Shown: piece after piece, positions 9,476 to 36,547 of the stretch
Layout: each line of letters opens with the position of its first letter
Numbering within the stretch: position 1 is the stretch's first letter
Source: Climacium dendroides
Taxonomy: Eukaryota; Streptophyta; Bryopsida; Hypnales; Climaciaceae
Assembly (NCBI GenBank): GCA_950106755.1
Contig: OX467091.1
Location: forward strand, 8,449,538-8,513,537
DNA length: 64,000 nucleotides
Reading direction: 5' to 3'
Made by a program: the position numbers and the translations under genes
Notes under the pieces: model-generated
Database searches by the model: none
Told to the model about the DNA's origin: nothing
What the model saw: only the letters and a program-made list of their open reading frames with translations

Positions 9476-9625
9476 TTGGGGCCATGTCAAATTGTTGATT
9501 TCTCAAAGTTCCCATTGATCCCCATTGTCTGGAACTCTCAAGAACTCATGGTCTTATTTGGGCATAAAAAATCATCTAATAACACCGAATTAGACATTCT
9601 TGCACTTGGCCAAGTGCAATCACCA
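9476..9625 (+). repeat. left terminal inverted repeat of the giant transposon
   Basis: This holds TTGGGGCCATGT at the outer edge, then about 95 bp not shared with the right end, then AACACCGAATTAGACATT, CTTGCACTTGG and a directly abutting inverted CCAAGTGCAATCACCAT. TTGCACTTGGCCAAGTGCAA is itself a 20-bp palindrome at 9600-9619. The unshared 95 bp compares with about 27 bp at the right end, so one end has gained or lost roughly 70 bp. Confidence 0.75.
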
Positions 9626-10106
9626 TATGTAATACTATTCATTAAAGAAGTGATTTTTAAAAGAGGAGTACCCCCTGGGTTTTTTGGAATATCTTTTTCT
9701 TACTATTCTGTAATGTATTTCATGCACAGCTATGCATTTCCAGTTCAAATGCATTGTTACATATCTTGTAGAAGAATAAGTTTCTAATGTACTGTTTTTT
9801 ATTTGCATTCTTCTTTCCTTTCTATTTTAATCTTCGCATGTCACCACATATTGCAATCTCATTAATTGTATATTACTTTTATGTCAATAATACATGTACA
9901 CCATAAATCACGACAATCATTGAAAGCTTTATCAAGAAAATAAAAGTGGAATTGAAGGTATTTGCACTACCTTTTCAATTCTCAATTATTGTTCACACAA
10001 AACAAAAACCACACAATCCAACGTCTACATAAAACCACAACGACCATATATTCTTTGCATTCCTACATATTGTATGATACTGTCACATATACCACTATTT
10101 CGCTTG
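9626..10106. other. 3' flank of ORF1 inside the transposon
   Basis: No coding sequence. This is where the ORF1 transcript should end; an AATAAA signal on the minus strand is present at 9803-9798. Confidence 0.4.
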
Positions 10107-13100
10107 TTACTGCAATGTTTCTTCCAGTGCCTCCAAGACTTGTGTAGATGATTGCGTCATGTCTTCGGCTTCTCCTGTACCAACTGTTTCTGTTCCCTCA
10201 TTGAAACTGATTTCACCAATTGGACTTAGTGGGGGCGGAGAGGCGTACTGCAACGCCCTATCCACCATAGCGCTGGCAATAGGTGTCGACACTCCCTCTG
10301 ATACAGTCGGTGATAAAGTAGGATTTTCCAAGATGGAAATAACACGTTCATACACGTAATGCCCTTCGCTACCGGTCCGAACATAGCGTATGTGTTCTTT
10401 ATCATAAAAAAACCCATCTTCATCTGGAAACAAATTCATAGACTGTAATCCACTGAAAGCTGACAATGCTGACATAGGTTCCACTGAAGCTGGTGATACT
10501 TCAATTTCTTCCCCATCACCTTCTTCATCTTCTAAGCCTTCATGATGCACATCATTATTGCCTTCCGGAACTAAATAATCAGGATCTGTGTCCATGTCCA
10601 CCGAATCTGCTACATCTCCATGGACATCATTCACTGCATTGGTGTCAGTTGATCCCAAACTTCGACCACCACTTGGTAAGTCATTGGAATGCGTTCTCTC
10701 AGAATCACTATCACCTTCATTTGATGATGAAGCTGATGAATCAATTGCAGTCTCCTTCCCTTTCCGCGTGTGCTGTTTGGTCCTTGGCAATCTCTCTCTT
10801 TCATTTGGTGAATCACTTGACGACTGCAGTACCCTATGCTGTCTACTACGTGGTACACCTCTCTTCCTCTGTGAAGAACCAGGACCACTAGATTCGCCTT
10901 CCGTGCTTAACACTTGTCTACGCTCTGCAGTTGTATTCACACTATTTACCATCACCATTTTGTCACCGTACATCAACTGCAATGTGTTGTAAACGAATTG
11001 TGTACACGTTGTTCCTCCCTCCATGATGATAACTTCATCACCTACAAAACCGGTCTCCAATATACCCGGTATTGCCATTGTGATGCCTAATGTAACTAAA
11101 CCCCATTCTGGTGGCAAATACATTTGCACCAACCTCTTCAATTCCATTGGTGTCCTCTCCAACTTGTCCTCCGCTCTTGGCATTACTTCTGCGTTCCAAG
11201 AGTCTCGAAACACCACATCCAACTTCTGTGTGAGGTTAGGAACATTTTCCAATGGACCTGATTCTTTTGGATACTGCATGATGATGGCAATGTCACCTAC
11301 TGGTTGCACACGACATTTGCGTTGTTCCCCATGATGTAAATCATGCACGTATGAAGAAACTGTTTGTGGTTTAAATATCCAAGAACCTCGCAAACAGTGA
11401 CAACTCTCTGGCAACGCCATCTTCGACTGCATTTCTTCATCGAAATATACACCTGGTGGGAAAAGAAATATAGCATTCCATCGTAAAATTGATGACATCC
11501 AATTCTGCAGTTGTTGGAAAACCTTGCTGTAGTCTTCACTTGACCACTCTTCATCCAACCCTTCCGAACCACAACGTCGACAATCAAATATCCATAAACA
11601 TGGTTTACCAAGCTCCACATACTCGTCTTCAAAAAATCCTCCTCTACACCTCACATGAAGCAATCTTTCTCTCCCTTGTTGTTGGACAAGGGAAAGTGCG
11701 ACTTGCCAATCCCATCGAGCATTGGACACGTCATCTACATCCCGGCTATATCCTGCATATCCTTTGCGACCTGCTTTAATGTCCACAAAATGTTGCCTCA
11801 CGAATGCTGGAATTACATTCTCAAAACTGCTAAGCGTTTGAACAGTCTTCACAAAAGGTGAACACCACAAAGTCTTCGTATCATTATTCAATGTCTTCCC
11901 CATCAACGTGAATTGCTTTCCTTGTTCATCTCCATACTTGCTGGCATCTATGGCAAAGAAATCATCCATAGACAAGGGATTCACATCCCCGGCTTGCACC
12001 ATCAGGTATCGGATTTGGTTTCTCACTGCATCTTTTCTCTGCACACGATCTACTACATATGCCACTGTACCTTTGGGAGGATTTGTAGAAGTAGTGTTAT
12101 TGAAATAGTATTGCTGTGAACCTCGCAACCCGTTCACTACATCCTTAGCTGCCATCCGCTTGACCACTCGTACATATGTTTCCTTTGAAACTCTGCTGAG
12201 AGGCCTCCACCACGTTTTTTCCATCCGTTTCCTTTTTGGATCTGCATCTACACTTGCATCAAGATTTCGATCCCTTGCCATCTTTTTCCACCTATCCTCT
12301 GCTTTTTTGCTGAAAAATAACTTCCCTTCTTCATAGTCTTTGCAGACCCGTAGAATCGCTTCATACGATTCTTCATCTTCATTCCAAGCATGTCGTGTGT
12401 AGTCGATCATCTTCTTTGACAATTCCCCCAATGACATGTGCTTCGGTAAATCTTGGCTCAAATGCAGCGCACTTGCTGCCATAGTCAACGCTTTCGCTCT
12501 ATACGCATCATCAATTCTAGCTGCAGCACTGGGGCTCCCACATGCTTTCCAGATGTCATGCAGCTTGATTAAATTCTCGTAATACGTGCTAAAAAACGTT
12601 CGATCAAACTCCCTTGCGTTTATTCTGACTGATGCTTCGATATAGAATTGTGGGTTGTCATACACCACAAACTTAGCTTTTCGTCTCTCGAAACGCGTGA
12701 AGTACTCGTCGTTTGACATAATACCCTCTTGGTTTTCTTTTTGGGCTCGTTTACAAGCACCAACTACATGTTGTCCATCAACCGGTTCCCACACTACATT
12801 ATTCTGCAGCCAACTTGTCCTCGACACAGTACCTGAGAGGGACGGATCTGCAAAGCCGTGTCTCAAAAATGCTGCCTCAAATTCCCGTACAGCACTTTCA
12901 CGACTGAAAGGAACCTCAACCATCTCAAATTCCCCATCATCATTCATAATCTCATGTCGATATGCAATAGGACGGAGAGTAATTGCACTAACTGCATCGG
13001 CTTCTGATCCCTTCAAACGCTCATACATTTCATTCACTCTCCATTCCATTAGCACCCTATGGTTGGTCTCTGCATTGACTATATGGTGGATGCTATCAAT

Positions 13101-14501
13101 GTTGGCATTGAAGAACATATCATGTCCCCAAATGTATCCAGCCTTATACTCAATCTCCGTGGGAAAAATCACAGGTGGTTTCGTAATATTTCTTACCAAC
13201 ACACTTCTTAATTCCCCTTGTGGTTCTCTTTCCGATGAATCATCCTCAAAAACATCTTCGCCATCATTGCCTTGTGGAGGTGGTTCTTGCATTGTTGTTC
13301 TTTGTCGATGTCTTCGTACTGTAGAATGAGTGCGGACATTTCGCTCCTCTGCTAACCTTGTGTTTAAGGTATGAAGATTGTGATGTTCTTCTTGGTTGTC
13401 CACCACTGTAGAAGGCTGTTGTTCTATCCTTCTACCTCGTCCCCTACCAGCACTTTCTCCCCTGCTAGTACCTCGTCCCGTTCTGGTAGCTTGTAGTGGA
13501 CTGACGTTGGGTCTTCTGGCATTCATATTGGCAAGAACAACACGTGACCTATATGTTCGACTTCTAGAATCCACCTTTGTAGCTCTTGATGCTGAACCCA
13601 CTTCAGTGACTGCAGTAGGAGCTCCATGTTCAACTACATTTTGAAGGTCTATGGGAACTAGTTCTTCTATTGTTGTAGCCCTCTGAAATGCAATTCGGTT
13701 GCCTTGCAATGACTCTTCTCCAACCTCCATCTCCACTGCTACTGGCATTACTGATGCACTTTCTCGTACTAACGTCTCTTCATATTCATGACTTTCATTT
13801 TCTACGAAAGGCTCCACTTCAACATTGTCTATGACAGATTGAAGACGTTGGCGATGAGCACTCTGTCTTTCAGAAACTCCCAACTCATTCACATCTGCTC
13901 CAATTTCCACTTCAATAGCTGCTTGCTTTCGGTTTCGTTCAGACGGAGGTATCCAATTTTCTTTCAAAAGCGCTGCAAAAACCCGATATATATGATCCGT
14001 ATCCTCAGGTTCTCTAGGGGGAGCTCTCTCTTCAGTTACAACAACGCCACTATTCTGAAGATCTTCATAACTTCGGATCTCCATGTACCGAGTACGTACT
14101 TCAAATGCTTGCTCAGGAGTCAATTCCTTGAATTTTTTAACAGATGCCTCTCTCCGATCTTTCAAATCATCAGGCATACTGTTCCAGAACTTCACCAACG
14201 TCTTCACACCATGTAAGGGTGACAGATTAAGTAGGAGCTCCGGTGGAATACGTGCCATCATGAGCTTCTTCTGCAATTTGTACTTTTCCAGTACCATTTC
14301 GCTGTTGGTGACAGACACAGTTAATCCTCCTTCAGCAGTGCCTGCAAGACTCTCAATGACTCCAACAGAGGATCCTAAAGCGGCCCAGTACCGTCCTTCC
14401 TCTATCGCAAACTCCGTGATCCATAACATTGGTTTCTCATGACCGTTTGCTACGATCCACCAACCATGCTCCACCCACTTTGAATGAACTTTGGGTGCCA
14501 T
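10107..14501 (-). CDS. transposon ORF1: ParB-like plus degenerate DNA-methyltransferase-like protein
   Basis: An uninterrupted 1464-codon gene from ATG at 14501, far less AT-rich than its flanks. Residues 1-170 form a compact region rich in W and charged residues. Residues 200-430 look disordered, with an RG-rich basic stretch (about 340-358). Residues 440-600 resemble a ParB/sulfiredoxin-type fold, with the signature-like EPVDGQHVVGACKRAQ at about 572-587. Residues 965-1180 follow the order of a permuted (beta/gamma-like) DNA methyltransferase: WIFDCRRCG where DPPY is expected, DEEWSSEDYSKVFQQLQNWM, LRWNAIFLFPPG, GSWIFKP, then RTPMELKRLVQMYLPPEWG followed by LVTLGITMAIPG where the SAM-binding GxG motif is expected. 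Both catalytic motifs are gone, so enzyme activity is unlikely. Residues 1200-1464 are acidic and Ser-rich, with basic nuclear-signal-like clusters near 1215-1250. My inference is a DNA-binding accessory factor of the transposon. The domain calls come from motif reading only. Confidence 0.8.
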   Translation of the reverse strand: MAPKVHSKWVEHGWWIVANGHEKPMLWITEFAIEEGRYWAALGSSVGVIESLAGTAEGGLTVSVTNSEMVLEKYKLQKKLMMARIPPELLLNLSPLHGVKTLVKFWNSMPDDLKDRREASVKKFKELTPEQAFEVRTRYMEIRSYEDLQNSGVVVTEERAPPREPEDTDHIYRVFAALLKENWIPPSERNRKQAAIEVEIGADVNELGVSERQSAHRQRLQSVIDNVEVEPFVENESHEYEETLVRESASVMPVAVEMEVGEESLQGNRIAFQRATTIEELVPIDLQNVVEHGAPTAVTEVGSASRATKVDSRSRTYRSRVVLANMNARRPNVSPLQATRTGRGTSRGESAGRGRGRRIEQQPSTVVDNQEEHHNLHTLNTRLAEERNVRTHSTVRRHRQRTTMQEPPPQGNDGEDVFEDDSSEREPQGELRSVLVRNITKPPVIFPTEIEYKAGYIWGHDMFFNANIDSIHHIVNAETNHRVLMEWRVNEMYERLKGSEADAVSAITLRPIAYRHEIMNDDGEFEMVEVPFSRESAVREFEAAFLRHGFADPSLSGTVSRTSWLQNNVVWEPVDGQHVVGACKRAQKENQEGIMSNDEYFTRFERRKAKFVVYDNPQFYIEASVRINAREFDRTFFSTYYENLIKLHDIWKACGSPSAAARIDDAYRAKALTMAASALHLSQDLPKHMSLGELSKKMIDYTRHAWNEDEESYEAILRVCKDYEEGKLFFSKKAEDRWKKMARDRNLDASVDADPKRKRMEKTWWRPLSRVSKETYVRVVKRMAAKDVVNGLRGSQQYYFNNTTSTNPPKGTVAYVVDRVQRKDAVRNQIRYLMVQAGDVNPLSMDDFFAIDASKYGDEQGKQFTLMGKTLNNDTKTLWCSPFVKTVQTLSSFENVIPAFVRQHFVDIKAGRKGYAGYSRDVDDVSNARWDWQVALSLVQQQGRERLLHVRCRGGFFEDEYVELGKPCLWIFDCRRCGSEGLDEEWSSEDYSKVFQQLQNWMSSILRWNAIFLFPPGVYFDEEMQSKMALPESCHCLRGSWIFKPQTVSSYVHDLHHGEQRKCRVQPVGDIAIIMQYPKESGPLENVPNLTQKLDVVFRDSWNAEVMPRAEDKLERTPMELKRLVQMYLPPEWGLVTLGITMAIPGILETGFVGDEVIIMEGGTTCTQFVYNTLQLMYGDKMVMVNSVNTTAERRQVLSTEGESSGPGSSQRKRGVPRSRQHRVLQSSSDSPNERERLPRTKQHTRKGKETAIDSSASSSNEGDSDSERTHSNDLPSGGRSLGSTDTNAVNDVHGDVADSVDMDTDPDYLVPEGNNDVHHEGLEDEEGDGEEIEVSPASVEPMSALSAFSGLQSMNLFPDEDGFFYDKEHIRYVRTGSEGHYVYERVISILENPTLSPTVSEGVSTPIASAMVDRALQYASPPPLSPIGEISFNEGTETVGTGEAEDMTQSSTQVLEALEETLQ

Positions 14502-14506
14502 AATAC

Positions 14507-14527
14507 CCTACAAAATGAAGATGAAAT
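14507..14527 (-). promoter_or_regulatory. candidate splice acceptor just before the ORF1 start
   Basis: On the minus strand the bases before the ATG read as a pyrimidine-rich tract, TTTCATCTTCATTTTGTAG, followed by GGTATT and the ATG. This is a good acceptor and suggests an intron in the 5' leader, placing the promoter far upstream, possibly in the GC-richer core at 21-24 kb. Confidence 0.4.
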
Positions 14528-17344
14528 ACATTTTTTTAATTGGTAATTGTGAAAGTTGTAAGGTTCAAAAGTTATATTTTAATATGAACGACTGTTATGA
14601 CAACAATAGTTGAAATACATGCTATCATACTCTTTAAGGTTTTATTCACTTCACAATTGCAAAGAATTTCTTGCTACAATAAACTATGAACATGGAGTAC
14701 ACATCACCAATGACCAATTGCAATTGATATTTCATTCAAATAATGCAATTTCACAAGCCACTCCTGCCTAATTTCTCAAAAAATCATTTTCTACAAATAT
14801 GAAATGAAAGTGCTATTGCTTCTTATCATTCACTAAATTCATCATCGTCAATGTTTAACACTTTCAATACCCCCCCAAAAAAACCTTCCTTCCTATATAG
14901 ATTACATGAATTTTCTCTTCATGTGTCTTCAAATATTATACTATATAAATCAATACATTTTAGGAATACAGAAAATGAAGTACAACATCAATTCAAAATA
15001 ACAACCACTTGATGACTACTTTATAACTACATCTTCATTGACATGAAGATAAAATACATACATTTCTACAAATGTCATCGTATAGCACCGTAATGGTCGC
15101 ATTCCATTCATTTGTACTAATACATCATACACAATGTAGTGCTCTAGACCACGAACATTACAGTTTTTCAATTTTCCATTAAAAATTTGTTCATGCATTT
15201 CACAAATAAAACATTCATACCTGGCATTCAACTATTCTATAAAAGTATAACAACTTCAACGTAAACAAATAAACATGTAAACCATTTGTACAACATATTC
15301 ATGATGTCTTAAAATTCATTCATCATCTTTTCATCCAAAAAAAATTTAACTGTCACTACAGTGCCACCACTTAAGCTTTTATTCACTAAGCCCTCAAATA
15401 CCTACAAGTGCACTATCATGCAATAAAATTTTTTAATTGGGTATTCAAAAAAATTCCTATTCTTTTACAATTCAAATATCACATACATCATATAGTACGT
15501 GCGTTTCAACTAAAGACACATAGTTCTCATAATTGTATCCTAAAAACACTACAGAACTCCGTATTTATAGAAATACACAAATCACTTCTATGAATTGATA
15601 CTTCATAGTTGCATATGTTCATTTACATGCACTTCCAAAAATAACTTCCATAGTGCATACAAGTGTCAAAGTATGTAAAACTTAAATTTTCAAATTTATT
15701 GAAAATAAAATGGAAATTCAAACTCACATTGTCCACCACTTACACTTGTACATTAGAGAAATTTGAAATTTGAAAATATATCTCATCTTGTCCTGCAGTA
15801 GTTTCTTCCTTTCAATTATGATAAAATTCAATAAATTTATAAAAATACTAAATTCTATGTCCTATTCATTCAAATGTTGTGTTCTACCATTCATTAGTGC
15901 TGAAACATCTTTCACACTCTAAAAGTTTACTACAATAATAACTACACAGAGACCTCTATAGAAAATGGGTTTACAGCAGATAGAATTTCGATTACGAACC
16001 TGTTTTCAATATAAATGTTGCGTACAAATCTACAAACAAGCACAGAACACCAACTCCCTTTGACGTTGAAATTTAAGTTCTTCAAGTACGTCACATTTGT
16101 TCTCCTCCAAAAATCTATAACATACACGCACATGATGAACATGAATACTATGTCTTCCCTTTTGAAAAAATTCTAATAACACACAATTCTTTCCTAGTGA
16201 AAAACAATCATTCTGATTTTATTGATTCAGTGTACTCAGGCTTGAACACTTAGCTCTCAATAGAAAAATTCTAAGAGAACTGAAACTTCAAAGATTGAAA
16301 CTGCTGTGGACATGATTGTTCAAATGAAGTCCAATAACAAACACAAAACAAAAACAATGCTTGTACTTAACATTCAAGTTCATTAGGTACATGGTGTTTG
16401 TTTTCCTTCCAGAATGTCCTACATCAAATCAAATAATCAATGTGCACTCTTTATCTTCCCTTTCCAAGTACATGGTTTCAACACAAATGAGACTCTTTCA
16501 ATTCAAACTATTAAGAAATAATACATTTATTTCAAAGAACTACCCTTTTTCAAAAAAAATCAACATACAAATAATAATTATACTTATTAATCAATGGCAG
16601 TACTCTACATTTTCAATTCATCATGCACATTGAGAACTAACAAATGAAGTACAACAAAAATAACACAAGCAATTTACATTAGCAATGTATTTTTGAAACC
16701 ATAGATTCAATGTACATTACTTTCGAATGCATTTCAAATTCTCTTAATATTTTCCAAAAATAATCCGTAGAAATAGAAATTTAATAAATTAGATGTCACA
16801 TATGAACAGATAGCATAAACATATATTTCTAAATATACTTTTAATCATGACTAATTTTGACTACTGATGTGGTACATGACTAAATAAGAGGATTTCAACA
16901 TTTACAAATTCAATTCCATTGTTTCAGTATTATGTGCACATTTCAAACTCATTGACGATGTCAATTCACATTCCTTCTCTAACAAAACTAATTTCATAAA
17001 TTGTCCGAATAAGGAGTTAGAGGAAGAACCACTGTGGATGCTGTAATTCGTTGTGCACTTAAAAGTATCCTTACAGCACGTTGGAACGTGAAGCTACCTC
17101 TCCTACTTTTCAGTTTTATCGCTTTTCACTCCCCCTACAGAACCTGTTACATCCAAAAATAAAATTAACATCTCCACAAACACTTCTTTTTCTAATGATG
17201 TTCATGAAGAGGACATTGAACCATTAGCACTCCCTCTACTTGTAAGCAATGATTACCTTCAATGAACTATAAATTTCAATAAAGACGTTCACATGGAATC
17301 ATGAATATGACAAGTAATTCATGAAGTCCTCTTCATTCAATATA
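14528..17344. other. noncoding interior of the giant transposon, left arm
   Basis: AT-rich DNA without a credible coding frame; the short ORFs are scattered and show no domain. Motifs such as AATGAAGTACAAC recur near 14975 and 16645, hinting at very old internal repetition. Confidence 0.5.
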
Positions 17345-18650
17345 GGAAGTCTAATTCATTGTACCCAAGCAATCATGGTATACAATAACCAATTTAATTA
17401 GATGCCAATTGCATATGGGCTATTCTAAAAAGGAACTATGAATTTAAACTATAAATTACGCTTTGTACACAAGTAAACAAGTTCTAAAGTATACCAGAGA
17501 AAAACACTTCTCTGGCTTTCAGCTTCTACACTTGAAAACTAAAATTTAAAATTGGTCTAAATATAGAACAATAAATTGAAGTGCCACTTGCATATAGAAT
17601 CTTTTGCACATGAACTACGAATTGAAAATCAAAATTTCATTCTGTATGAAAACAAACTTCCAACATTGTCTCCTACAATGAACCATGTCTAAACTTCTAG
17701 AACTAAGAACTAATTCCAAGACTGTTCAAAAGGAAAATAAAAACAGTTAAGTACATTGCAATTGTATGTGGGTTCTTCTAAAAAGCAACTTCAGTTTTAA
17801 ACTACCAATTTGGCTCCATTTAAAAGGTTCAAACATATACTACTTTAAAGAGATATACATGGCTCCTAACTTCTAAAATTCATAACTAATTCAAAGAGTG
17901 TTCAAAAGGGAAATAAAGAAAATGAAGTTCACACTAGTTCCATGTACATTCCTACATAAATAAATTCCAAATTGAAAGTAGCAATTTTAATATCTACACA
18001 TTGGAAGACGCTTAAAAGTTTTGTGTACAGAAAAACGTTTAAACTTCAGATTTCGCTAATTTATTCCATGATTATTAAAGAAGAAATGGACATGCTGAAA
18101 TGTAGGTGCCTTCCTCTAAAATATAACTTAAAGTTGAAACTAGCAATTGTACTTTGTACAATTGGGCACAACATCAAGAAATTTTTATAGACAATGAATA
18201 CTCAACTTCAAAAACCCATAACTAATTCCGATGGTGTTCAATGGAAAAAAAAGGTGAATTCTAGGGCAATGCAAGGTAGTCTTCTTTAAAAATGAACTAA
18301 CAATTGAAACTAGCAATTACGCTTCATACATAAGGCAACAACCTCAAAAGAATTGTACCCAAACCTATGTATGAACTTCAAAAATTCATAAAACAACTAC
18401 CATGTATTACGAAGGACATGAATAAGTTCAATTAGGTGGCAATTCCATGCAGGATTCTCTGAAAATTAAGTAACAATGGAACTTCTCAAATTAACTTCAT
18501 ACAACATACAGAAAGATTAATTATGCTTCATAAAGAACAATGTCTCAACTTCAGGAACACGTAACCAATTCAAAAAGTGTTAATAAACAAAAAACAAAAA
18601 AACTTACATTACAATTTGATGACTCTTTGTATTAAAATTTCATAAATTTT
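17345..18650 (+). repeat. satellite-like array, period about 172 bp, inside the transposon
   Basis: Diverged units begin near 17345, 17518, 17690, 17867, 18042, 18207, 18380 and 18552, a spacing of roughly 165-177 bp. Each carries versions of ACTTC(T/A)AAAA followed by CATAACTAATTC, then GTGTTCAA, a purine-rich block, a GCAATT(G/C)-type block and AACTAGCAATTA. The best matched units are those at 17690, 17867 and 18207. Another recognisable but isolated unit lies near 19598. The period is near nucleosome length. Confidence 0.6.
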
Positions 18651-20879
18651 TTTGAAATGAATTGAGGTTCTTCAAGTACGCCATGAACTAAAATTTTTAA
18701 ACTATTTCACCTAATTACAACAAGCTAGAAACTCTTCAATAGTTTGTGTAATAGTGAACCGCTATAATCATAATGCCATTTTCTTGAAAAAATAATCTTC
18801 AATAGTAAGTTCCAAATTTTCGTGATTAGGATTATGAACCTCAAGTTTCTGCATGCCATTACAACTTCTAGTACTGTCTTTGTCTATGATTGTTCTGGAA
18901 AATATATAAACGGATTCTTCTTCTTAATTAGTTGGTGAAATTTGAAAACAATATTCATAGGTCCAAAAAAAAATATCATTGAAACCACATCTCATTTTGC
19001 ATTTACGTTGTAATATGCTAATGTCCACCAATGTAAGGTACAATGTTAATGTCTGAAGTACATTTTACAATGTACATTGGTGGGACGTGAAGAGAAGACA
19101 AAAAATTATAAGTTGAAAAACTCATAATTTAGTAATTCACTTGAAACATTTCATGTTGCAAAAAAATATATATCTCATAGCTTATGATAAGAACTTAAAT
19201 CTCTTCTTCTATAAGATTGAGTACAAAAATAGCCATAGCAAGGACTTCAAGACATCACCTGATGTGGATGCCGTAGTTGCTTTTGCATGTACAAGTACAC
19301 TTATAGCATGGCGGATTGTCAATGAAATTATCTTCGTAAGAGCTTTGTAGGCTCTTGAATTTGTCCTAGAGACCTGTCGCACCCAATAGTTAAAAAAATG
19401 AATAACTCATTTAAGGACATGCTAATTCCATGTGAACTACAAAATATGTAAACTCAAATACAGTTCTCCTAGAATGATGTTGTACAAAAAACAATGTGCA
19501 GAAACACTCCTGCACTGCATTCTATGTCTAAACATTGCAGGTAGTAATTAAATTTCTTACAAAAGGCAATTATTGAAATGTACTACTATTAAGATCTATG
19601 TTTGAACACCACAAATCCATAACTCCTTGCACAAGTGTTGAAATACTACGAAATGAAACCATCTTCTTCAGAGCTACATTTAAGATAGAAGTTCAATCAG
19701 AACTTCACTTCCCAAAAATACATAAAGTGTTCATCGATAAAAATGAATGAAACATCAATCAACTTCATGTCAACCTTTACAGATCTATTAATACAGTATT
19801 GACACTACCTAATAATACTACATTACTCATACGTTTCCTTATGTTATACATATCATTGGAGATAGGATGATAAGCATAATTTGCTTGTCATGCACATTAA
19901 ATTAATTCAAAGTCTATGGGTTCATTTTTCCATGTTCAGAGTTAAAGTTCAATTTTTCATTCCGTACCCATACTATTGTGAAGTGAATGAAATCACCTTG
20001 TACATTTTCAGTTCCTATAATTTGCAATTAACACAGTTCTATATTATGTCATTTCAGTATGCTAAGATAGGATGTACATGAGAAATAATGCAGGTGAACA
20101 AATATGCACAAAGCACAACTACTACGTGCATTTTGTCAATTCTTAGGGAAAGACACTACTATCAATAATTCATTCTCTACAAACTTCCACTCTCAAAATA
20201 TGGTAGTCATGCGTCTTCCCTAATTTTTGACTCCTAAAAATAGTCAACCTCATTGAATAATGTTTCAAGCGGGTATTCAAATCATACATTTAGTTAATTC
20301 CTTAACAGTTTTTGCAACGAAGCTTACTTTATCTCACGTTCCCTGAAATGTTTGTAAATGCACTTCCAGGTACTTCAATTTATGTACTTTTAATAGTTAG
20401 TTTCAAAGCACCAACATTTTCTGCTTCGTTTCTATGCTAACCAAAAATTGGGATTGAACCATATGTCTTTCATTGAACTTGTTCTATAGTCACTGCCACT
20501 TGACTATTGAATGACATCAAAATTTTCTGAAATACAAGTTAAACTACTTCTGCTCATAACTAGTGAAGTAATACATGAGGACAAAATTTCTTAAGGTAGA
20601 AGTTGAATTTGCTGCTCTCTCAAGTAGCATGGATTTGTTTCAACAATTTTTCTGTGTGTAGGATTTTCATTTCTTTTATTCAATTAGAACCTCATATAAT
20701 CTTTTGGCAAGCTTGACTTCACAAAATTTGTTATTGGAGTTTATTATTTGACGACATTATCTTTCAATATTTTTGAATAATGCATATCAAAAGCAATTAA
20801 TACAAGGGAAAGGTAAAGTTCTGTGAACAGAACATTCATTTAAAGTATTCATTTAAGTGGTGAAAACTGTCATGAACTA
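18651..20879. other. noncoding transposon interior with a small hairpin
   Basis: No coding exon recognised. An inverted repeat at about 19022-19084 pairs CCACCAATGTAAGGTACAATGT with CCACCAATGTACATTGT read from the other strand. Weak relatives of the 172-bp unit occur near 19400 and 19598. Confidence 0.45.
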
Positions 20880-21111: not shown

Positions 21112-21177
21112 CTGTCTCCGTCAAAGACACAATTGACGAATTCACTGTCTCCGTCGAAGGCACAATTGACAAATTCA
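21112..21177 (+). repeat. 33-bp tandem duplication
   Basis: Two adjacent 33-bp units start with CTGTCTCCGTC and contain CACAATTGAC; they differ at only a few positions. Confidence 0.8.
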
Positions 21178-21242
21178 AGTACTGTCTTCTTCTAACGCAC
21201 TACTTATGAATGCATCCCATTTTTCTTCCATTTTCATTTTCT

Positions 21243-21392
21243 CTATTGCCAGTGCAAGTTTTAAATCTGTGGAAAGGGTTGTGGTCAGGACAGTGCTATT
21301 GCCAGTGCAAGTTTGCACAGGGTTGTGGGCAAGACAGTGCTATTGCTAGTGCAAGTTCTAAATCAGTGGACAGGGTTGACGGCAGGACAGTG
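21243..21392 (+). repeat. three-copy tandem repeat, 53/44/53 bp
   Basis: Units at 21243-21295, 21296-21339 and 21340-21392 each run from CTATTGC(C/T)AGTGCAAGTT to GGACAGTG or AGACAGTG. The middle unit lacks 9 bp. Confidence 0.8.
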
Positions 21393-22630
21393 CATTGCAT
21401 AGCAATTTCAAAGGCACATGCAACTCATGAGGGCCAACTTTAACTGAAGCGCACAAACGGAGTCTATCGTTAGGTGCAGATTCAACAACGAAGTCAATCT
21501 GAAAAGGTAATTCATATTCTAAGTTTGTAATTACTCTTCCATTGAATTGTAACATGCAGTCCTTTTGGAATTCAGACTTGAATGCTCAAGGTTCAGCAAC
21601 TTCAAACTAACTGTTGAAGGTCTAAGTTCGTCACAGTACTAAGTGACTGCTGTTTTCAATAACAATTAATCCAAGGTACTATTAAGCATGCACTCTATGG
21701 AAATGAAGGCTGCCATTCAAGTTTTCCTGCTGAATTAGAAAAAAGAACTCTGTCATTGTACTTCAAGAACTGTAGACCCGGTGGAATTCAAAAACAGTTG
21801 AACAAAAAAACTGGATTCAATTTTATTACTCTTGTGATAGTCATCTACCTTCAAGCCTGTCTTATTGCATACATAACTTTTAAATGAAAATGGAAGCAAG
21901 ACAACGCAGTTTCAGCTAAGAATTGTACTAAGCAGCTTTGTCCTGGAAAATTAACGAAGAACATCACTCACACATTCGAGAGCACTTCATCACTGTCCAA
22001 GTAGTATGCTGATATTCAAAATCTTCAGATCCTTCTCTGCTCTCTTCACTGAAATGCACAGAAAACGGTTAGTTAGTGTAGTACAGAAAGTGTGTGTGTG
22101 AGTAACAGAACTGTCGTCAAGTGTTTCAATATGTCATGAGTACAAAGTAGCTTGTTTCCACCTTTCCTGCATTTAAGAGAGTAGCGTACTTGAGAAAAAT
22201 TTCTGCATGCGGGGAAGGCAATCATTGACCTGAATTGTTCATACTCTCACAAAAAAACAAAGTGGACCTGCAGATGAAGAGATTACCGATTGGGAGTGGA
22301 AATCACGAGATGAAGGCAGAACAGAAATTCCGATGATAGGAAGCCTCCAACCTAGTGGCCGCTCAGGTGACTGCCCTTCAACCCTTCCCTGACCACTTCA
22401 CGGAACACTCACTTTTAACAACATGTTGAACAAATTAAAGAAAACAGTAGTGACAGCAATATTGTACTAAAAAACCAGACGTACTTGATGGAGCAAACAA
22501 AATGAGCGACTGACGAGGAAGGTGTGCAGGTGAGAAATCTAGAAAAAAATTCACCTGAGAACTGAGCGAAAGGGGATAAGCAACAGAAGAGGAGAAGCAA
22601 CGGAGGGGGAGAAGCAAGTGGCGCGAAAAT

Positions 22631-22690
22631 CACGGAGGAAGGCAGCTGTACACGGAGGAAGGCAGTTGTACACGGAGGAAGGCAACTGTA
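22631..22690 (+). repeat. 20-bp tandem repeat, three perfect-length copies
   Basis: Three consecutive units of CACGGAGGAAGGCAGCTGTA type differ only at the centre of the CAGCTG box (CAGCTG, CAGTTG, CAACTG). Confidence 0.85.
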
Positions 22691-22834
22691 CTTTCTAAAA
22701 CTAGCTGCCGCAGCTGTACAAGCTGAAAATACTCGTTGCAGCGGCGCCGACGTGCCAAGTCCCTGCCAGCACTTTACCGCTGGTGAGTACAGTCCTTGGC
22801 ATTGAGGTCTCAATCCTATTTCGAGAGTCCAATA

Positions 22835-22980
22835 AAGCTACAGTTACCCTCCGCGGCCGCGGAGGGTCACTGTTCAAGTCTGCTCGGTTTCAATCCACGA
22901 ACGGTCTGACTCCACGAAGTAGTGCAACCAAGCTACAGTTACCCTCCGCGGCCGCGGAGGGTCACTATTCAAATCCGCTC
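22835..22980. repeat. paired 51-bp repeats, each with a 22-bp GC palindrome
   Basis: Copies at 22835-22885 and 22930-22980 are nearly identical. Each has a perfect palindrome, the half ACCCTCCGCGG followed by its complement (22846-22867 and 22941-22962), flanked by AAGCTACAGTT and CACT(G/A)TTCAA. Spacing between copies is 95 bp. Perfect GC palindromes stand out sharply in this AT-rich DNA and look like binding sites for a dimeric protein. Confidence 0.85.
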
Positions 22981-23800
22981 TCAAACACTGCATGAACAGT
23001 AGGCTCACCCTGGATTTTCAAAATATAAATTTAAAAAAAAACAAAACGGAACTTTGCCACCGTTATCTGGTAGTCCGGACACAGTGAGTTGGCAGTCGTG
23101 GCTACAGGTATCGTCCACTTCTGCCGCTAGTTCTGTGTTTAGGCAAGTTATTTCAAGACTGTCGCACTTTCCCCCGGAGGGATAATCTACTTTACAGAGA
23201 ATTAGAAATTGAACTAGAAACGGAAAGAGAGCTGCGGGGTAGGGTTTAGAGTTTACCGTTTATCAAGATGCAGGCCACGACTGCCAACTCTCCCCTTCCG
23301 AAACTGGAGTACCGCTCTCCCCTTCCGAAAATGCGGAAATCCTATCTGCAGCAATTTGTTGCAGGACACGAAGAATAGACCCCGCACATGTACACTTACC
23401 CTGCAAGATACACCGCCGCCTTTCATGTACGTGTTGAATTTCAGTACTGCACAGTACGAAAGAAAAACGGAGAATTGAAAACTCCCGAGGAACCCAACAT
23501 GTAGAAGTGGTAGCATTTACCTGAGTCTGTGAATAGCTTCAGTGACGTCTCCGACTGGCTTCGTAGCGACTCCGCTGATCTTTCTCAACCTCAATCTGTC
23601 TGCACTTTGAAGCGGAGCGCACTAATTTCATCGAAATTGCAGTAGAAAAACCAGTAACTCTAGGGTTAGCCGCTCGAAAGCTCTACTCAGGTGGCTGTAT
23701 TCCAGATCGATCTTCTGTTCGAAACTGATTAGGCCGTTAGGACGGAAACTGAAGCACGACAGAGGTAACCCTAATCTGGTAGAAGGAGGCGGACTATGCA

Positions 23801-25589
23801 AGTGGGGAACTCCTCAATGAACAATGCTCATGGGATTTCTGTTTGCGTCCTTCAATCGTTTAAATTTTTCTTAGTTAAACCAGAACTTGCACGTTAATTA
23901 ACTATAATGTTGTTGCAGAGGGATGTCTATTAGTTCAAGTAAAACAACCCATTTGGTAAGAAAGAGGAGTTTGACATCATGTTGTTGTAATTTCTGAATT
24001 TTTTTCCCACATAGTACAAGTTTGAGCGATTGCAAGTGCAATTGAAATTAAAATTTTTTGACAAACTATGAATTAACTAGGAATTTATAAAGTGTTCAAC
24101 CCAGAGGAGTCAGTATGCTACCTTCAAACTAGGAAAATCTAAATCTGAAATGCTAATTTTACTACCAAATGTAGTCCAATGATTTTCTAGTATTGAAGGT
24201 CCAAAAATACCATTTTTACAATGAACTACACACTAAAAAATCAAAAGTTCTTAATGAGTTCTGTGTTCACTCCATAATTGTCATTGAACCTGAAACTGTC
24301 TGATTGACCATATATGGTGAATCGGAAAGTTCAGTCTGACTTTGGGATGGTCAGTTAAATTCATATGACTATTATAGAAATTTTGGGGGACAGTTTGTAG
24401 GGTTCACTGTTGAGAACTTCCATTTTTCACTAGAAAAGTTTAACATTTGATTTTTTAGAGGTTCTTAAAGCCATGTATGTCCATTTTTGGTAGAGTAAAG
24501 CTTGCTAATTTTTCCTCATTATCCCAACTTTGCCAATTTCACTTGATTTGAGATCTAGGAAATTGTACTTATCCTTTTTATTCGAAAATTTTATGTGTAA
24601 AGTTATGGAGCATTTTGGAGTCACAAATTGCGTTCTAGGGAAAGCGGAATAACTCCCAATAGTTTTTAGTTAATTATATTGTGAAGAAATATGCAATTTG
24701 CATTGAAGTTTCAATTTTAATGCAAAATAAGTAAATATAATTGAATTTCTCTTTGAAATAATTTTTAAATTTTAATAAAGAATGTACTTTGAATTTGTTT
24801 CAACCTTCGAGCAAGTGCTATGAGAGATGTTGTGAATTGTAAATTGTGCCACTAATCCCAAAGAGGGGTATAGTGATATGAGTGGTAGATCAGAACATCT
24901 CCCAAATTTTTTAAATGAAGTGACCACGTTCTCTAAGACATTGTCCATGTATAGGAAAATGTGAGGTTTACGTGCATGCCATTTTTTGGAATGTTGAGTC
25001 AGTTTTAGAATATTCCAGAACTCCTAGATTATTTTCATTTTTAATCCCGAAGTGAATAAGAATGGAGGTGACTATGTCCAATATGTTGTCCAAAGATGCT
25101 TGAATAGGTCGTACTACAAGTTTCTGAGGCCTTGGAGACAATTGATCCAAACTATGAACATATGTTGTACAAAATGTATTGATTGGTTACTAATGTCACT
25201 AAATTCCTAATAGGGAGTTAAAGACATTATTGAGAAATCACAATTTCTCCCACATCATTTGCATTGAGGTACATAGGGGAGTTCATTGGTTAAATTCTAT
25301 ACATTGTGTAGTTTTCATAGTTACATAATTACTATTAAAAATTCAATTTTCAATGAAATAATTTTTTTTTAATTTTTTTTAATTATTACAGAAATACATG
25401 AGGGTAAATACGTACTAGAGAAGAAATAGATACACGAAATAATGATGATTGAAGTTACATAATTTTATATTTTTACTCTATGAATAATTTGAAGGAAGTT
25501 TACTTCAGGATAATGAAAATTTTCCCTTTTTCGTTGAGAAATTATAATTCCTCTTGGATTTGATTTATGAAACAAGTGCACAACTTCAA
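23801..25589. other. noncoding interior of the transposon, right arm
   Basis: AT-rich, with no exon or element end recognised. Confidence 0.5.
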
Positions 25590-25815
25590 AAATAATGTTG
25601 TTCTCTTGAAATTTACAACATAATATTGAAATAGCGAATGGAGGTGGTAATAGGCTTCTGTACCTCGTATGGGCTTGATTTGGAACTGAGCAATATTAAT
25701 GAATACTGAGAGCTTCACTTTCGAAATGAATACACACTTTCATAAATTATCTAGCACTCTTGAATTTGACAACAAAATTTTGAAATTGACAATGAAGGTG
25801 GTAATAGGCTTGTCT
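25590..25815 (+). repeat. diverged repeat, two copies about 155 bp apart
   Basis: The blocks near 25594-25655 and 25749-25811 share CTCTTGAA, ACAACA, ATTGAAAT and GGTGGTAATAGGCTT in the same order. Confidence 0.6.
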
Positions 25816-27019
25816 ACATACTTTTGAGAGAACATGTATGTAAGTAGTACAAAACAAATCCTGCAGTTCTTTTGAGCAACTTGCAGAGGTAGCTAATTCG
25901 TAGGTGGAGAACGGAACATGCTAATTCATGTGAAAGAAGTTCTGATCCAATTTGTACTAATTCCGTACTCCATCCAATTCCTTGCTTCAGACAAATACAT
26001 TAGTAGAATCATTTTCTTTTTTTAAATGGATGAAATGAATACAATGTTTCCGAACATGAATAATAGTTACAAAAAAATATAATTTAAGCCTAGTACATTG
26101 AATATACATCCATTTTGGTTGATAAATTGTTGTTTCATGCTTCATAGTTAAATGTATTAATTTAGAAATTTATGTTTCATCAATGAATACAAAGTTCCTA
26201 ATCTTATAAGAAGCTTACATTGGGAACCATATAAAGTTGACGGTTTTGCTTGTGTGTATTATGAAATTTGTGCAAGTCATTGTGTACACAATGAAATTCA
26301 TTATGAATTGTATGAAGCCATTGTCCTTGGTACTAACGTCACATACATTGAGTAGGTATCTACGTTTTGCGTTGAATGCTACGTAAATTGGCTTCTGAAT
26401 TGCATTGAGCCATATGGAATGTATGTCCGGGAAATCTAAGATACAGGTATGACAACTCCAAATGTATCCTATGTTTGTAGGAAATTCACGATATCATTGA
26501 CGTTTAGGAATTGATATTTTTTATAGGCTACATAAGACTTCTTAAAGTTTGACATTATTATTCCTGAAGTCAATAATTATTTCTACAATTATGCAGTTCC
26601 AGTCTTTCTGTGAACATAAATAATTCATAGGAAGGTGAATGCAAATAGAATGAATGAAAGTTGTACATGTGGGCAAGAATAAAATGCTTATGGGGAAAAA
26701 AATTAATATCAACAATTGCGAATTTATAAATTTTTTTGGAGTATACTTTCGTCTGTTTTTTTAGGTTACATGGGCATAATAAGCACGAGAGAGGTAATCC
26801 TTTTTTACACCGCAAGGGACAATGGTATGTGAAGGATTAAAGAACATATTTTTCTTCATCCAATTAAAAATTAATAACGTCTGTATAAAGAAGATTTCAT
26901 TTGTATTGAAGACCTAATCACTGTGCTTATACAGAGAAGAACAGTACTATAACAATGCACAATCTTATTTTCCGGCTACGAAAATTTTGTACAATGAGAT
27001 TTTTAAAAAAAGTGACAGT
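25816..27019. other. noncoding interior of the transposon, right arm
   Basis: AT-rich. Only short ORFs without recognisable domains are present. Confidence 0.5.
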
Positions 27020-27163
27020 ACTAGGAAATTAAGTTTTTCTGTTGTTTTGGTTGCGTTCTTCTGGTCAGAATCTGACAGAAATATGTTGATTTCAACATAT
27101 TTTTGTCAGATTTTGAAAGAAAGAACACAACTGGAACAACAAAAAACATAAATTTCATAGTAG
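27020..27163. repeat. long hairpin upstream of ORF2
   Basis: Two arms of about 68 bp face each other almost without a loop. The left arm passes through TGTTGTTTTGGTTGCGTTCTT, TCAGAATCTGACA and ATATGTTGA, and the right arm carries the complements in reverse order with a few mismatches. It lies about 700 bp before the ORF2 start. It could be a nested MITE or a source of small RNA. Confidence 0.75.
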
Positions 27164-27868
27164 TTTGACCATGTGTGCATGCAGGTTCAAAGTATCATGA
27201 ACAGTTGTATGCTTCATTTCCGTCCTTTTGTTAGAGATGTTGACATGTAAATTATTATTGAGGCTTTCATTGAACAAATGGGTCGCATTGTTAAAATCTT
27301 TGTGTAAAAGTGCAGGGGATTTTTGTTTTGGGATGTGCAAAGGTATTCGGTGGAAGTTCATGGATTCTAAAGTATTAGGATTTTGTAATTCAATGAATTT
27401 CTTTAGAATTCATTTTGATTTTTGAAAAAGAAATAAGTTTTTCATCATATTGTAAAACATGATGAAATGAAGTTTTTGTTGCACTTTTTGCTGAAGGGTT
27501 TTTGTGAAAATAAGTTGTGTTTGTTTGAAAGTGAATATGTGAAAGTCATTTGTTCTTTTTGAAGTTAATGTGCAGAATTATTTGAGTTTTATGAACTAGT
27601 GTATGGAAATAGAAGATTGAATCATACTGTTGTAAATGAATATTGATGAAATATCTCTCTAGTTTTGTAAGTACTATGCATTATGAGGGAACTTTTTTTG
27701 TACTGTTACAACGATCATGTCAGTTTCATGAAAGATGTAGTGACAGTGTTCAACTTCTTCATTGTGTATGGTTGTGGGGAAAAAGTGACATCAATGGATT
27801 GCATAGACGAAGGTATTTGAGAACGTAGTGGAACAGAAGCAATTACAGTGTAGTACAAACGTACTAAA
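27164..27868. promoter_or_regulatory. 5' flank or leader of ORF2
   Basis: Noncoding DNA between the hairpin and the ORF2 ATG. Candidate acceptors (GCAATTACAG, GTGTAG) lie within 20 bp of the ATG, so a spliced leader is possible, but the pyrimidine tract is poor. Confidence 0.35.
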
Positions 27869-30748
27869 ATGTCATCAGCAGCATTTGGAAGTCCAGTGAT
27901 TTTGAATACTAAAGGCAGAACAACAATCTCAACGGAACAAAGAAGCGTAGGGGAAAGATTGGCCCGGGTAGTACGCGGAAGACTTTTCCAAGAAGAAGGA
28001 CCTCCATGTCCACGTGTAGTACCAGAGTCTATTCATGGCACGGTGAAACTCCTCGGTGACGACGGATGTGTTGTGGGTGTTGGTGTGGTGGATAATAGTA
28101 TTACATGTGGACTCGAACTTCACCAAGTGAAATTACGACCTTTTGAATTGGCTGTGAAAGTTACAGAAGTAGTGGATGTCAAGAAGTGGGTTGGTGAGGT
28201 GGTCGAGAAGTTTTTAGGTGATTGTGTAGGAAAAATCATACGATGGCGTCGTGGTTTAGTGAAATTGCCACTTCCATCAGAGTTGAGAACGACAAGTACT
28301 ACTTCAAGGGAAGGGCAGAATTTTTCATTCCATCCTGTGTCTGCAGCGGAGTTTGATTTTTGTGACGAAGATGATGACCTCAGCAATTCTCGACGTGTTT
28401 CACCAACTTTTGGTGAAACTAGTACACGTGCAAGAAGTTCACCTATAATACAAGGCTCTCAAGGCAGCACTGCCAGTTTTACAACAATGGAAGGACTACC
28501 CAGGGATACACCGAGGAGGAAGTATTCAATGACAAACAGGAGAGCAAGGGTCAGGAATCCAAGAAAAAGGGGAGAATCAGCTAGTCAGAAAGTGACACTT
28601 GAAAGTGTAATGTGTGCAAAGGAGAAAGGAGGTTGTAAGCGAAACTATTTGGTGCATGTGGATCCGAAATCTATTTTAGATCAACGATATATGGCTTGGG
28701 ATCAAAAGTATGAAGAAAGGGCTACATGGATAATGCAAATGCTCAATGCCTTTTATACTCGAACACAGGGGCCTTCCAGAGACAAATATGTCACTAAGTT
28801 AGACAGAGTAGTCGTCTGTAATGCATGTTACGCTGTGGCATTGGGGTACTCCCAAAGGCGATTGAAGCAATTGAAGACAGCACATGCAGTGTATGGGAAA
28901 GTGGCAGCAGTACATGGAAACACGTGCCAAGGAAATGAAAGTGCAAAGTTCTCTGCAGTAAGAGAGAGCCTTGATATTTTTGTGAAAGAGGCTGGATGTC
29001 AACAACCCCATCGATCAATTCGAAGGAAACTGGATGGTGTAGTGTTGCCGTTGATTCTTTTGCCTATGAATACCACAAAACTAGATGTATTTCAGTATGT
29101 GAATGAAGAAGTGAAGAAATTGGTGGATGGTTCGGAATTATCAATTAGCTCCTTCCGTCGACTATGGCGAAAGGAATTCCCGCATGTGCAAATCCCACCA
29201 TTTTCTCGGTTTTCAAAGTGCTATCATTGTTGGGAGTACAAGTGTGGAATGGAATCCACAACTAATGCAACAGCGAAAGTGAAGATCAAAGAGTTGTATG
29301 TGATTCACATCCGATACCAAATGGAGGAGAGACGAGATTATTGGTTGTTCAAGAGATCAGCCATGATAACTCCAGACATTTTCATGTGTTTAATTGTGGA
29401 TGGTATGGATCAGAATACCACCATGATACCGAAGATGAGACAGACTGTGAAGAACATCGAATCTCGATTTGTGAAGACTCATCTTTGTGGAGTACTTGTG
29501 CACGGGATTGGCTTGTACGCAGACGTGTGGATAGATGCTCACTACAAACATGATAGCAATCAAGTTATAACGTCTCTGATGAACGTTATATGCGATGTGA
29601 AGCAAAGAAAGGGATCACTGCCACCGACATTGAGGATTCAAGCCGATAACACAACGAGGGAGAACAAGAATGTGTACATGTTTGCAATGTGTGCTGCATT
29701 GGTTGGGCTAGGTTTTTTCAAAGAAGTGCATCTTTGTTTTCTAATAGTGGGACACACGCATGAAGACATTGATCAGAAGTTCAGTGTCATATCCAATGTA
29801 CTGAAGAGGAAAGACATAGATACACTGGACGAGATGTTGGAACTTGTGGAGAAAGGGACGTCATATACGGAAGCGTTTGTGAAAGCTCGACAACTTGAGC
29901 ATGTTCGTGATTGGAAGGCCTTCATTACGCCTCATTTGCTTCGTGGGGGGGACTCATTGACTGGTATAACATTTCCGCACCACATGAGGTTCTATGTGGA
30001 AAATGGTTTGGTCCGTGTGCAACACAAACATTTTTGCTCAGATGAATGGGGCCCGGAGAGAGGTCACTTGTGTTTGAATTCTCTACCGAGCGTAGAAGAA
30101 AAACCAGACCTTGCTGAAGTGTTTCCAGCAGACAACAGGGAATTGAAGGCGCTTGACGAATTCATAACTTACAAGGAGAAGTTGGCATTAAGAGGCATAA
30201 ATCGTATGAGAAATGTGGAAGTCGCACAAAAGATAACAGAATTCAAAGATTATTTGGAGGACTTCCCGCATTGGAATAGAGGAACATATCGTGAATTACC
30301 GTTCTGGCCAAGTGAGGTCATAAACCAAAATGGGGATGGGGATCATTCGCCAAATCTTGAAGAAGCAGGTACAAATTCAAGTGGACCAATTGATGCAGGA
30401 AGAGGTACAACGGAAAGTGCAGACGTTGACTTGATTATGGCAACAATGCCAAATCCAGAGAGGAGGGGGTACTTTGGACCCCGTAGGGAAAGGCCTGCAC
30501 AAGAAGGATCACGAAGAGTGACAGGTGGGAGGAATAGAGGTGTACGGAATGAAACAGCACCTGCACAAGTTCAAGGTGCAAGCGAAGATCTTTTTCCTGC
30601 ATTCAATCCAGAGAATGATGTTGTCATTGGTCAATTTGTGGCTCTTACTGTGGAGTTGCAAGAAGTCAGAGGAGGAGTTCCTTTTTATATTGGAAAGGTT
30701 CTAGAATTTGGTCAAGGAAGGCGTTCCTTGAAGATGAAGGTATTGTAG
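27869..30748 (+). CDS. transposon ORF2: DUF7869-type, RNase H-like transposase candidate
   Basis: An intronless 959-codon frame from ATG at 27869. Residues 55-135 resemble the DUF8039-type domain of plant transposon proteins (HGTVKLLGD, ELAVKVTEVVDVKKWVGEV, IIRWRRGLVKL). Residues 160-245 are low complexity and basic. Cysteine pairs at about 249/255, 317/320 and 450/453 suggest zinc binding, and YSQRRLKQLK near 337 looks like a DNA-binding helix. The DUF7869 core follows: VDGMDQ (about 509-514), CGVLVHGIGLYADVWID, RIQADNTTRENKN (D at about 592) and VGHTHEDIDQKFS (about 627-639). The acidic residues of VDG, ADN and HED occur in the order of a DDE/RNase H-fold nuclease, so I infer transposase function; the family's biochemistry is not known to me. 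The frame meets TAG at 30746 in the middle of a C-terminal, BAH-like domain (FYIGKVLEFG) that continues in the same frame. Confidence 0.85.
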   Translation: MSSAAFGSPVILNTKGRTTISTEQRSVGERLARVVRGRLFQEEGPPCPRVVPESIHGTVKLLGDDGCVVGVGVVDNSITCGLELHQVKLRPFELAVKVTEVVDVKKWVGEVVEKFLGDCVGKIIRWRRGLVKLPLPSELRTTSTTSREGQNFSFHPVSAAEFDFCDEDDDLSNSRRVSPTFGETSTRARSSPIIQGSQGSTASFTTMEGLPRDTPRRKYSMTNRRARVRNPRKRGESASQKVTLESVMCAKEKGGCKRNYLVHVDPKSILDQRYMAWDQKYEERATWIMQMLNAFYTRTQGPSRDKYVTKLDRVVVCNACYAVALGYSQRRLKQLKTAHAVYGKVAAVHGNTCQGNESAKFSAVRESLDIFVKEAGCQQPHRSIRRKLDGVVLPLILLPMNTTKLDVFQYVNEEVKKLVDGSELSISSFRRLWRKEFPHVQIPPFSRFSKCYHCWEYKCGMESTTNATAKVKIKELYVIHIRYQMEERRDYWLFKRSAMITPDIFMCLIVDGMDQNTTMIPKMRQTVKNIESRFVKTHLCGVLVHGIGLYADVWIDAHYKHDSNQVITSLMNVICDVKQRKGSLPPTLRIQADNTTRENKNVYMFAMCAALVGLGFFKEVHLCFLIVGHTHEDIDQKFSVISNVLKRKDIDTLDEMLELVEKGTSYTEAFVKARQLEHVRDWKAFITPHLLRGGDSLTGITFPHHMRFYVENGLVRVQHKHFCSDEWGPERGHLCLNSLPSVEEKPDLAEVFPADNRELKALDEFITYKEKLALRGINRMRNVEVAQKITEFKDYLEDFPHWNRGTYRELPFWPSEVINQNGDGDHSPNLEEAGTNSSGPIDAGRGTTESADVDLIMATMPNPERRGYFGPRRERPAQEGSRRVTGGRNRGVRNETAPAQVQGASEDLFPAFNPENDVVIGQFVALTVELQEVRGGVPFYIGKVLEFGQGRRSLKMKVL

Positions 30749-31054
30749 TACTGGCCAGCTATGAAATGAGGGGTGCAAGAAGAGACAGGCAGTAATAGAG
30801 TGAGGTACACGAATTGCATGGAAGGTACTTGGGAACCATCTGGAGAGAGGTTTTCTTGGATTGACAAGGAAGCCACAATATATTCATGGGAGCATGTCCC
30901 TCGTAGAGGAAGAAGTGGTCATGTAGTAGGTTCAAATGTAACAGTGTATGGTGTGCAAACTAAGGGACACATAATAATTCCTCAGGAAGCAAAACCTCAT
31001 CTTCTAGAGTATATAGCGATGCAAGTGGAGAACTTGGATGATGAACGTTTGTAG
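30749..31054 (+). pseudogene. C-terminal part of ORF2 cut off by two in-frame stops
   Basis: The frame of ORF2 continues without a shift: TAG at 30746, six sense codons (YWPAMK), TGA at 30767, then open to TAG at 31052. The continuation, with EGTWEPSGERFSWI and EATIYSWEHVPRRGR, completes the small aromatic-rich domain begun before the first stop. Each stop is one C-to-T change from a sense codon (CAG to TAG, CGA to TGA), in CHG and CG contexts that plants methylate. Mutational decay of a silenced copy is the simplest reading; programmed readthrough is less likely because two stops occur in a row. Confidence 0.75.
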
Positions 31055-31322
31055 AATGATTTGGATATGTATTAGAGTGACATTGTAGTATTCAATGCAT
31101 TTGAAACACTGTAATTATAGGTATTCAGAAGTAATGAATGTGAAGTGCACAGACAAGTACTCAAGAAGTAGTGCACGTTGAGAAATATGTAAGGTTTTCA
31201 TGAAGTAAATATATGAAGTATGGAGTTTTTTGACATTATTCCACTAGGAAATTTTTTCCTCAAAGAGTAATTGATATTTTCTAAAATCCCCCCCCCCAAT
31301 ATTTTGAAATTGACTATTTTGG
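31055..31322. other. 3' flank of ORF2
   Basis: Short noncoding stretch between ORF2 and the right inverted repeat, with a homopolymer C run near 31289. Confidence 0.5.
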
Positions 31323-31418
31323 ATGGTGATCAAGCCAAGTGCAATTTTGCACCCCCCAAGTGCAAAAATGTCTAATTCTATGTTTAATGTGGTTGACCTT
31401 CGAAAAACATGGCCCCAA
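31323..31418 (-). repeat. right terminal inverted repeat of the giant transposon
   Basis: Read from the outside inward on the minus strand it shows TTGGGGCCATGT, AACATAGAATTAGACATT, TTTGCACTTGG, a short G-rich spacer, TTGCACTTGG again and ATCACCATC. The two TTGCACTTGG motifs here are direct repeats, whereas the left end has them as a palindrome. Confidence 0.75.
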
Positions 31419-36345: not shown

Positions 36346-36547
36346 GTGATTTTCTAAAAGTGTAAACATGCCTAAGATAACTAATGAGAGAACCACAAAG
36401 TTTTCCTATGTGCCCGATTTGCACCAAGTTGTAGTAACTTCTACATGCTTTATCTTAATGTGGTTTTCAATAGTATTCAAGCCATATTTTCCAAAAATGA
36501 AACAAAAAGTAATAGAGATATTTGCTTAATCACAACATTGATTTTGC

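Follow-up and report, generated by a model that had tools for sequence, protein, structure and literature searches.

A many-copy 22-kb DNA transposon with a DUF7869 gene and a putative ParB-like partner in the moss Climacium dendroides

The stretch of DNA analyzed here (the window) comprises 64,000 nucleotides of contig OX467091.1 (positions 8,449,538 to 8,513,537 of the forward strand) in the Climacium dendroides assembly GCA_950106755.1, and its positions 9581–31384 are occupied by a giant (22-kb) DNA transposon that is present in many copies in the genome of this land plant. Two long genes, one encoding a DUF7869 protein and the other a protein that we will call the partner, are transcribed away from each other, with a core between them and terminal inverted repeats (TIRs) outside them. 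The main features, in window positions, are:

9577–9580, no strand: target-site duplication TAAT, left copy (flank reading)
9581–9609, plus strand: left TIR, 29 nt (self-comparison, copy alignments, flanks)
10107–14501, minus strand: partner gene, 1464 amino acids, intronless open frame (list of open reading frames, genome copies)
12597–13112, minus strand: ParB/sulfiredoxin-fold part of the partner, residues ~464–635 (fold match, model residues 25–196)
11115–11741, minus strand: weak methyltransferase-like and other folds in the partner, residues ~921–1129, with DCRR in place of a possible DPPY (fold match)
14502–27868, no strand: core, 13.4 kb, with degenerate repeats, a GC-rich center and no coding signal, different in other subfamilies (composition, frames, copies)
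27869–30748, plus strand: DUF7869 gene, 959 amino acids, intronless open frame, probable transposase, truncated (list of open reading frames, genome copies)
29462–30043, plus strand: DUF7869 domain, Pfam PF25273, E value 3.2e-53, residues 532–725 (Pfam match)
30749–31075, plus strand: remnant of the conserved DUF7869 C-terminal part past the first stop, with further stops inside (relatives; end read by eye)
31356–31384, minus strand: right TIR, 29 nt (self-comparison, copy alignments, flanks)
31385–31388, no strand: target-site duplication TAAT, right copy (flank reading)

The ends were first mapped on seven fetched copies of the same subfamily aligned to the window. These alignments begin at 9577–9581 on the left in six copies (the left end of C40:5.59 lies outside the fetched stretch) and finish at 31384–31394 on the right in six of the seven, the alignment of C40:3.7 finishing at 31344. 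The duplicated 4-bp flanks set the borders at 9581 (starting with AACACC) and 31384 (finishing with GTT), and the terminal inverted pair GAATTAGACATT...TTGCACTTGG has arms of 29 nt that are 90% complementary and span 21.7 kb. The inner 23 letters of the TIR, with up to two mismatches allowed, have 103 + 92 = 195 matches genome-wide, the reversed control 0 + 0. An earlier note on this DNA had also described enclosing inverted sequences; the 29-nt arms agree with this, but its outermost pair, TTGGGGCCATGT (9476–9487 and 31407–31418), had to be rejected as the element end since it lies outside both the duplicated flanks and the copy alignments. A scan of the fetched loci found TTGGGGCCATGT only in the window and at the window’s own place in the genome.

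Both ends and their flanks could be read in 23 elements (the right end of C41:4.31 by eye), and 18 of these carry an exact 4-bp duplication. Within the window subfamily these are TAAT in the window, AATA, ATAA, GCAA, AAAG, and AATG in five other copies and AAAC in C40:5.59; further exact duplications read AGAC, ACTA, ACAA, TATT, AATG, CATT, and CACC, as well as TATA, AATG, CCTT, and TTTG. The five inexact cases comprise two with three of four letters equal (C34:24.5 and C3:36.64), two with a one-base offset (C3:5.86 and C38:11.4) and one with a damaged end (C3:36.60). Counting C40:3.7 and C40:4.08, whose flanks are alike, as one insertion gives exact duplications in 17 of 22 independent insertions. 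For the first 20 elements, true flank pairs were equal in 16 of 20 cases vs. 7 of 380 mismatched pairs. Two of the loci also deserve mention in their own right: the elements at C40:3.70 Mb and C40:4.09 Mb, 0.38 Mb apart with identical flanks, form a segmental duplication carrying the element, and those at C3:36.60 and C3:36.64 Mb lie 38 kb apart with an equal gene spacing of 13,141 bp, their target duplications being inexact in both.

The host assembly (412.6 Mb, 123 contigs) was searched with both proteins; as such searches score only the best candidates, all copy counts are lower bounds. An LHC protein encoded in it matches LHCII chains of plants, the best single-domain ones being 7xqp_a and 8htu_U of the moss Physcomitrium with other plant chains scoring nearly as high, which would by itself point to a land plant, probably a moss. 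The window DUF7869 protein has at least 49 matches and the window partner at least 46, and with distant relatives as queries at least 56 (DUF7869) and 66 (partner) were obtained. After repeated rows were dropped and pieces merged, the matches listed represent 63 DUF7869 and 47 partner loci. A partner occurs within 40 kb of 37 of the 63 DUF7869 loci, always in the outward arrangement (37/37) and with gaps of 1.9–24.7 kb, where random scatter would give ~0.6 neighbors in any orientation. With a 60-kb limit and the window-protein matches alone, 27 of 49 rows have a neighbor, 26 of them outward; the sole other case is the internally deleted copy C34:24.5, which lies near another element. The proposal of a ~22-kb DNA transposon with an outward gene pair is thus borne out by shared ends, target duplications and many copies, as is the prediction that other copies would show these same traits. 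The finding named in advance as speaking against it, i.e., the two genes residing in separate elements, does not apply where the genes are paired, but no counterpart within 40 kb is listed for 26 of the 63 DUF7869 loci and 10 of the 47 partner loci, which may partly be an artifact of the lists because only the best candidates are scored.

The copies fall into diverged subfamilies. One of these consists of seven elements with a near-constant gene gap of 10,197–10,234 bp, three of which have no stop in either gene match, and this combination suggests that the subfamily spread recently. In a deep subfamily the DUF7869 proteins are only 60–61% identical to that of the window, and a compact member (C40:20817595–20828335; 10,741 bp) carries both genes, the TIR AACACGCAATTCGTTATTTTTGCACTTGG and the duplication TATA; the 13-kb core is, therefore, dispensable for the architecture. 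Elsewhere, at C1:48283030 and C1:48308447, two partner-type ends point apart with 25 kb between them.

PF25273 is a Pfam family entry without a stated function, and no mention of DUF7869 was found in the literature searched (subscription journals and bioRxiv were outside its scope); its position in these elements would provide this unnamed domain with a likely function, that of a transposase. All 17 sequences of our DUF7869 alignment match the family. Substitutions relative to four copies, given by phase with phase 3 as third codon position, amount to 25/25/39, 23/30/36, 24/26/58, and 20/28/59. Relatives that reach past the stop of the window gene extend 109–110 residues further, the window gene being a truncated version. 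Since the partner frame is open but the DUF7869 frame truncated, the window copy probably depends on a full-length transposase supplied in trans by another copy. The C-terminal part of DUF7869 proteins also weakly resembles two BAH-domain chains (E values 1.7 and 1.8); if real, this would represent a chromatin-binding tail, which the window copy has lost.

For the partner, substitutions relative to four copies are 86/46/59, 55/47/44, 102/35/49, and 113/54/65 (third codon position in phase 1), and for both genes the third-position bias is clear in most comparisons and weak in copy C41:17.04. A low-confidence structural model matches residues ~464–635 to the ParB/sulfiredoxin fold, i.e., that of the ParB/PadC/Noc partition proteins and sulfiredoxin, with 8–18% identity in the listed rows, although none of six partner sequences matched a Pfam ParB family (with a filter that drops most matches above E ~0.1). 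Scans of six partner proteins against NCBIfam and Pfam and of ten against PHROG revealed no convincing family, and sequence searches of the PDB gave nothing usable. For residues ~921–1129 the fold rows are weak and mixed, with methyltransferase-like ones among others. The candidate catalytic segment, assigned by eye, reads DCRR in all seven rows of one partner alignment and in all nine covering rows of a ten-row alignment, and the DPPY-type motif of beta-class N4/N6 DNA methyltransferases is absent at this site. Profile comparison of the partner with true methylases gave no match, nor did the DUF7869 alignment used as control. No relatives were found in viral contigs, in prokaryote genome contigs (scanned with the partner alignment only) or, by tblastn with the partner, in phages.

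Beside the TIR at the partner-gene end lies a further feature:

9600–9619, no strand: 20-bp perfect palindrome TTGCACTTGGCCAAGTGCAA (palindrome scan)

Its 16-bp center occurs at 101 places genome-wide (control 0); of the 16 partner loci listed on contigs C1–C3, 8 have it downstream of the gene. These contigs contain 40 such palindromes, 18 of them adjacent to a listed partner or TIR and 22 to neither, TIR matches with two mismatches being excluded from the list used in this comparison. The constant-gap subfamily has an imperfect palindrome, with TTGCAC/GTGCAA kept in two of three fetched ends, and GCACTTGG occurs six times in the window, four of these at the two element ends. As a bold hypothesis, the palindrome could be the binding site of the ParB-like partner; alternatively, the putative binder would be the transposase.

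The earlier note knew of no described plant superfamily with this architecture, but a closely similar two-gene giant element, Sola1-1_Ec32, has been published for the brown alga Ectocarpus (available excerpts of PMC12477816, as for all statements from this source). By description it is alike in size (21.5 kb), in its opposite-strand gene pair and in its ParB-type partner, which the moss element parallels with an opposite-strand second gene containing a ParB-like domain according to the low-confidence fold match. It differs in its host and in that its methylase is predicted to act, whereas the window partner, with 1464 amino acids, is without a DPPY-type motif and not recognized by Pfam. Combined ParB-methylase proteins have also been reported on DNA transposons of green and red algae (PMC12477816), and the window partner would similarly be a ParB-like protein on a DNA transposon. 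In the literature searched, such a pairing was found for algae only and not for land plants, and a moss genome paper (PMC9247546) has no mention of Sola transposons or ParB in the excerpts available. We thus consider the element as a kind known from algae, present in a moss and with a variant partner. Its 4-bp target duplication agrees with that of Sola1 elements, which is 4 bp long, and 4-bp duplications are also made by other superfamilies. Consequently, and because the likeness to Sola1 comes from descriptions and not from a Sola1 reference sequence, the element might instead belong to another superfamily or form a separate, unnamed DUF7869 superfamily, as the silence of the literature on DUF7869 would allow. 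We regard this as rather unlikely in view of the resemblance to Sola1-1_Ec32 in size, gene arrangement and partner (PMC12477816) and the AT-rich 4-bp duplications reported for Sola2 in excerpts of PMC3627910.

Two other explanations concern the partner. It may be a passenger gene acquired by the transposon and dispensable for its movement, which would fit the 26 DUF7869 loci without a listed partner and internally deleted copies such as C34:24.5. This is, however, improbable: the pairing holds in subfamilies with DUF7869 proteins down to ~60% identity, the partner is retained in the compact 10.7-kb form, most comparisons show third-position bias, and a similar protein occurs in algal transposons (PMC12477816). 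Still less probable is a role of the partner as a working DNA methyltransferase depositing N4-methylcytosine or N6-methyladenine on the element, a role proposed for the protein of Ectocarpus, given the invariable DCRR at the candidate catalytic segment and the negative profile comparison with true methylases. That two unrelated neighboring genes or elements merely lie between chance inverted repeats gains a little from the outermost arms of the earlier note not being part of the element, but it is refuted by the copies, with 37 of 37 pairs outward, common ends and target duplications, and retains virtually no likelihood.

The reading that we consider probable is that of a giant cut-and-paste DNA transposon with a DUF7869 transposase and a DNA-binding, ParB-like accessory partner. 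The DUF7869 protein would be a transposase with an RNase H fold, cleaving the element at its inverted repeats and the target with a 4-bp stagger. The partner would bind element DNA through its ParB-like domain, the likeliest sites being the TTGCAC...GTGCAA palindrome at its own end and an inverted pair resembling it at the opposite end; once bound, it may help to join the distant ends or protect the element against silencing. The methyltransferase-like region of the partner, if so read, would without a catalytic motif be a binding scaffold instead of an enzyme. Much more tentatively, we suggest a lineage of giant land-plant transposons whose ParB-type protein, with a catalytically dead, methylase-derived part, recognizes a parS-like palindrome of its own at one end. 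The protein would control how an element of >20 kb is paired or silenced, and a eukaryotic transposon would thereby employ a partition-type system. The interest of the element stems from this partner and not from its size: in a single plant genome, a protein with a prokaryote-type fold has stayed with the transposase in subfamilies that are strongly diverged and also in a compact element of 10.7 kb. Dozens of copies, including three from one recent group with no stop in either gene match, make it possible to test in a land plant what ParB-type transposon partners do, which is relevant for how giant transposons pair distant ends. Host control presumably limits giant transposons; PMC12477816 names ectopic recombination and notes that many taxa harboring such elements are haploid for much of their life, a trend with which a moss host would fit.

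The two genes were described as GC-richer, intronless and outward-facing in AT-rich DNA. Both frames and the contrast in GC (guanine plus cytosine) fraction, 0.42–0.44 in the genes vs. mostly 0.24–0.32 outside the element, agree with this, but the center of the core (21–24 kb) is equally GC-rich (0.40–0.47). Self-comparison did reveal the degenerate repeats expected of a repeat-rich 13-kb core. A third gene in the core was considered and rejected, as there is no frame >140 amino acids and no third-position bias and the core differs in another subfamily. Core blocks show no steady phase bias, and 5–21% of their sites differ from the four copies vs. 3–5% in the genes. With the core of another subfamily the window core has only stretches of 25–37 nt in common, including a GC-rich palindrome. 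Two smaller features of the core region are:

22846–22962, no strand: stretch with a 22-bp GC-rich palindrome twice (22846–22867 and 22941–22962; self-comparison)
27012–27169, no strand: foldback with 78-nt arms upstream of the DUF7869 gene (self-complementarity)

The GC-rich palindrome, present twice as 22 bp in the window, is a perfect 34 bp in copy C35:15.7 Mb; its exact center is absent from four of seven scanned copies and it has an imperfect match in another subfamily.

Outside the element, the window contains a tandem array at 34528–35288 (141-bp unit, ~5.4 copies) and a pair of stretches, 35502–36352 and 62359–63232, that are 85–92% identical, partly in inverted and partly in direct orientation, and probably represent another repeat family. 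Two further stretches, 52673–52845 and 39923–40032, are self-complementary (173 and 110 bp, ~80%) and resemble foldback or miniature inverted-repeat transposable elements.
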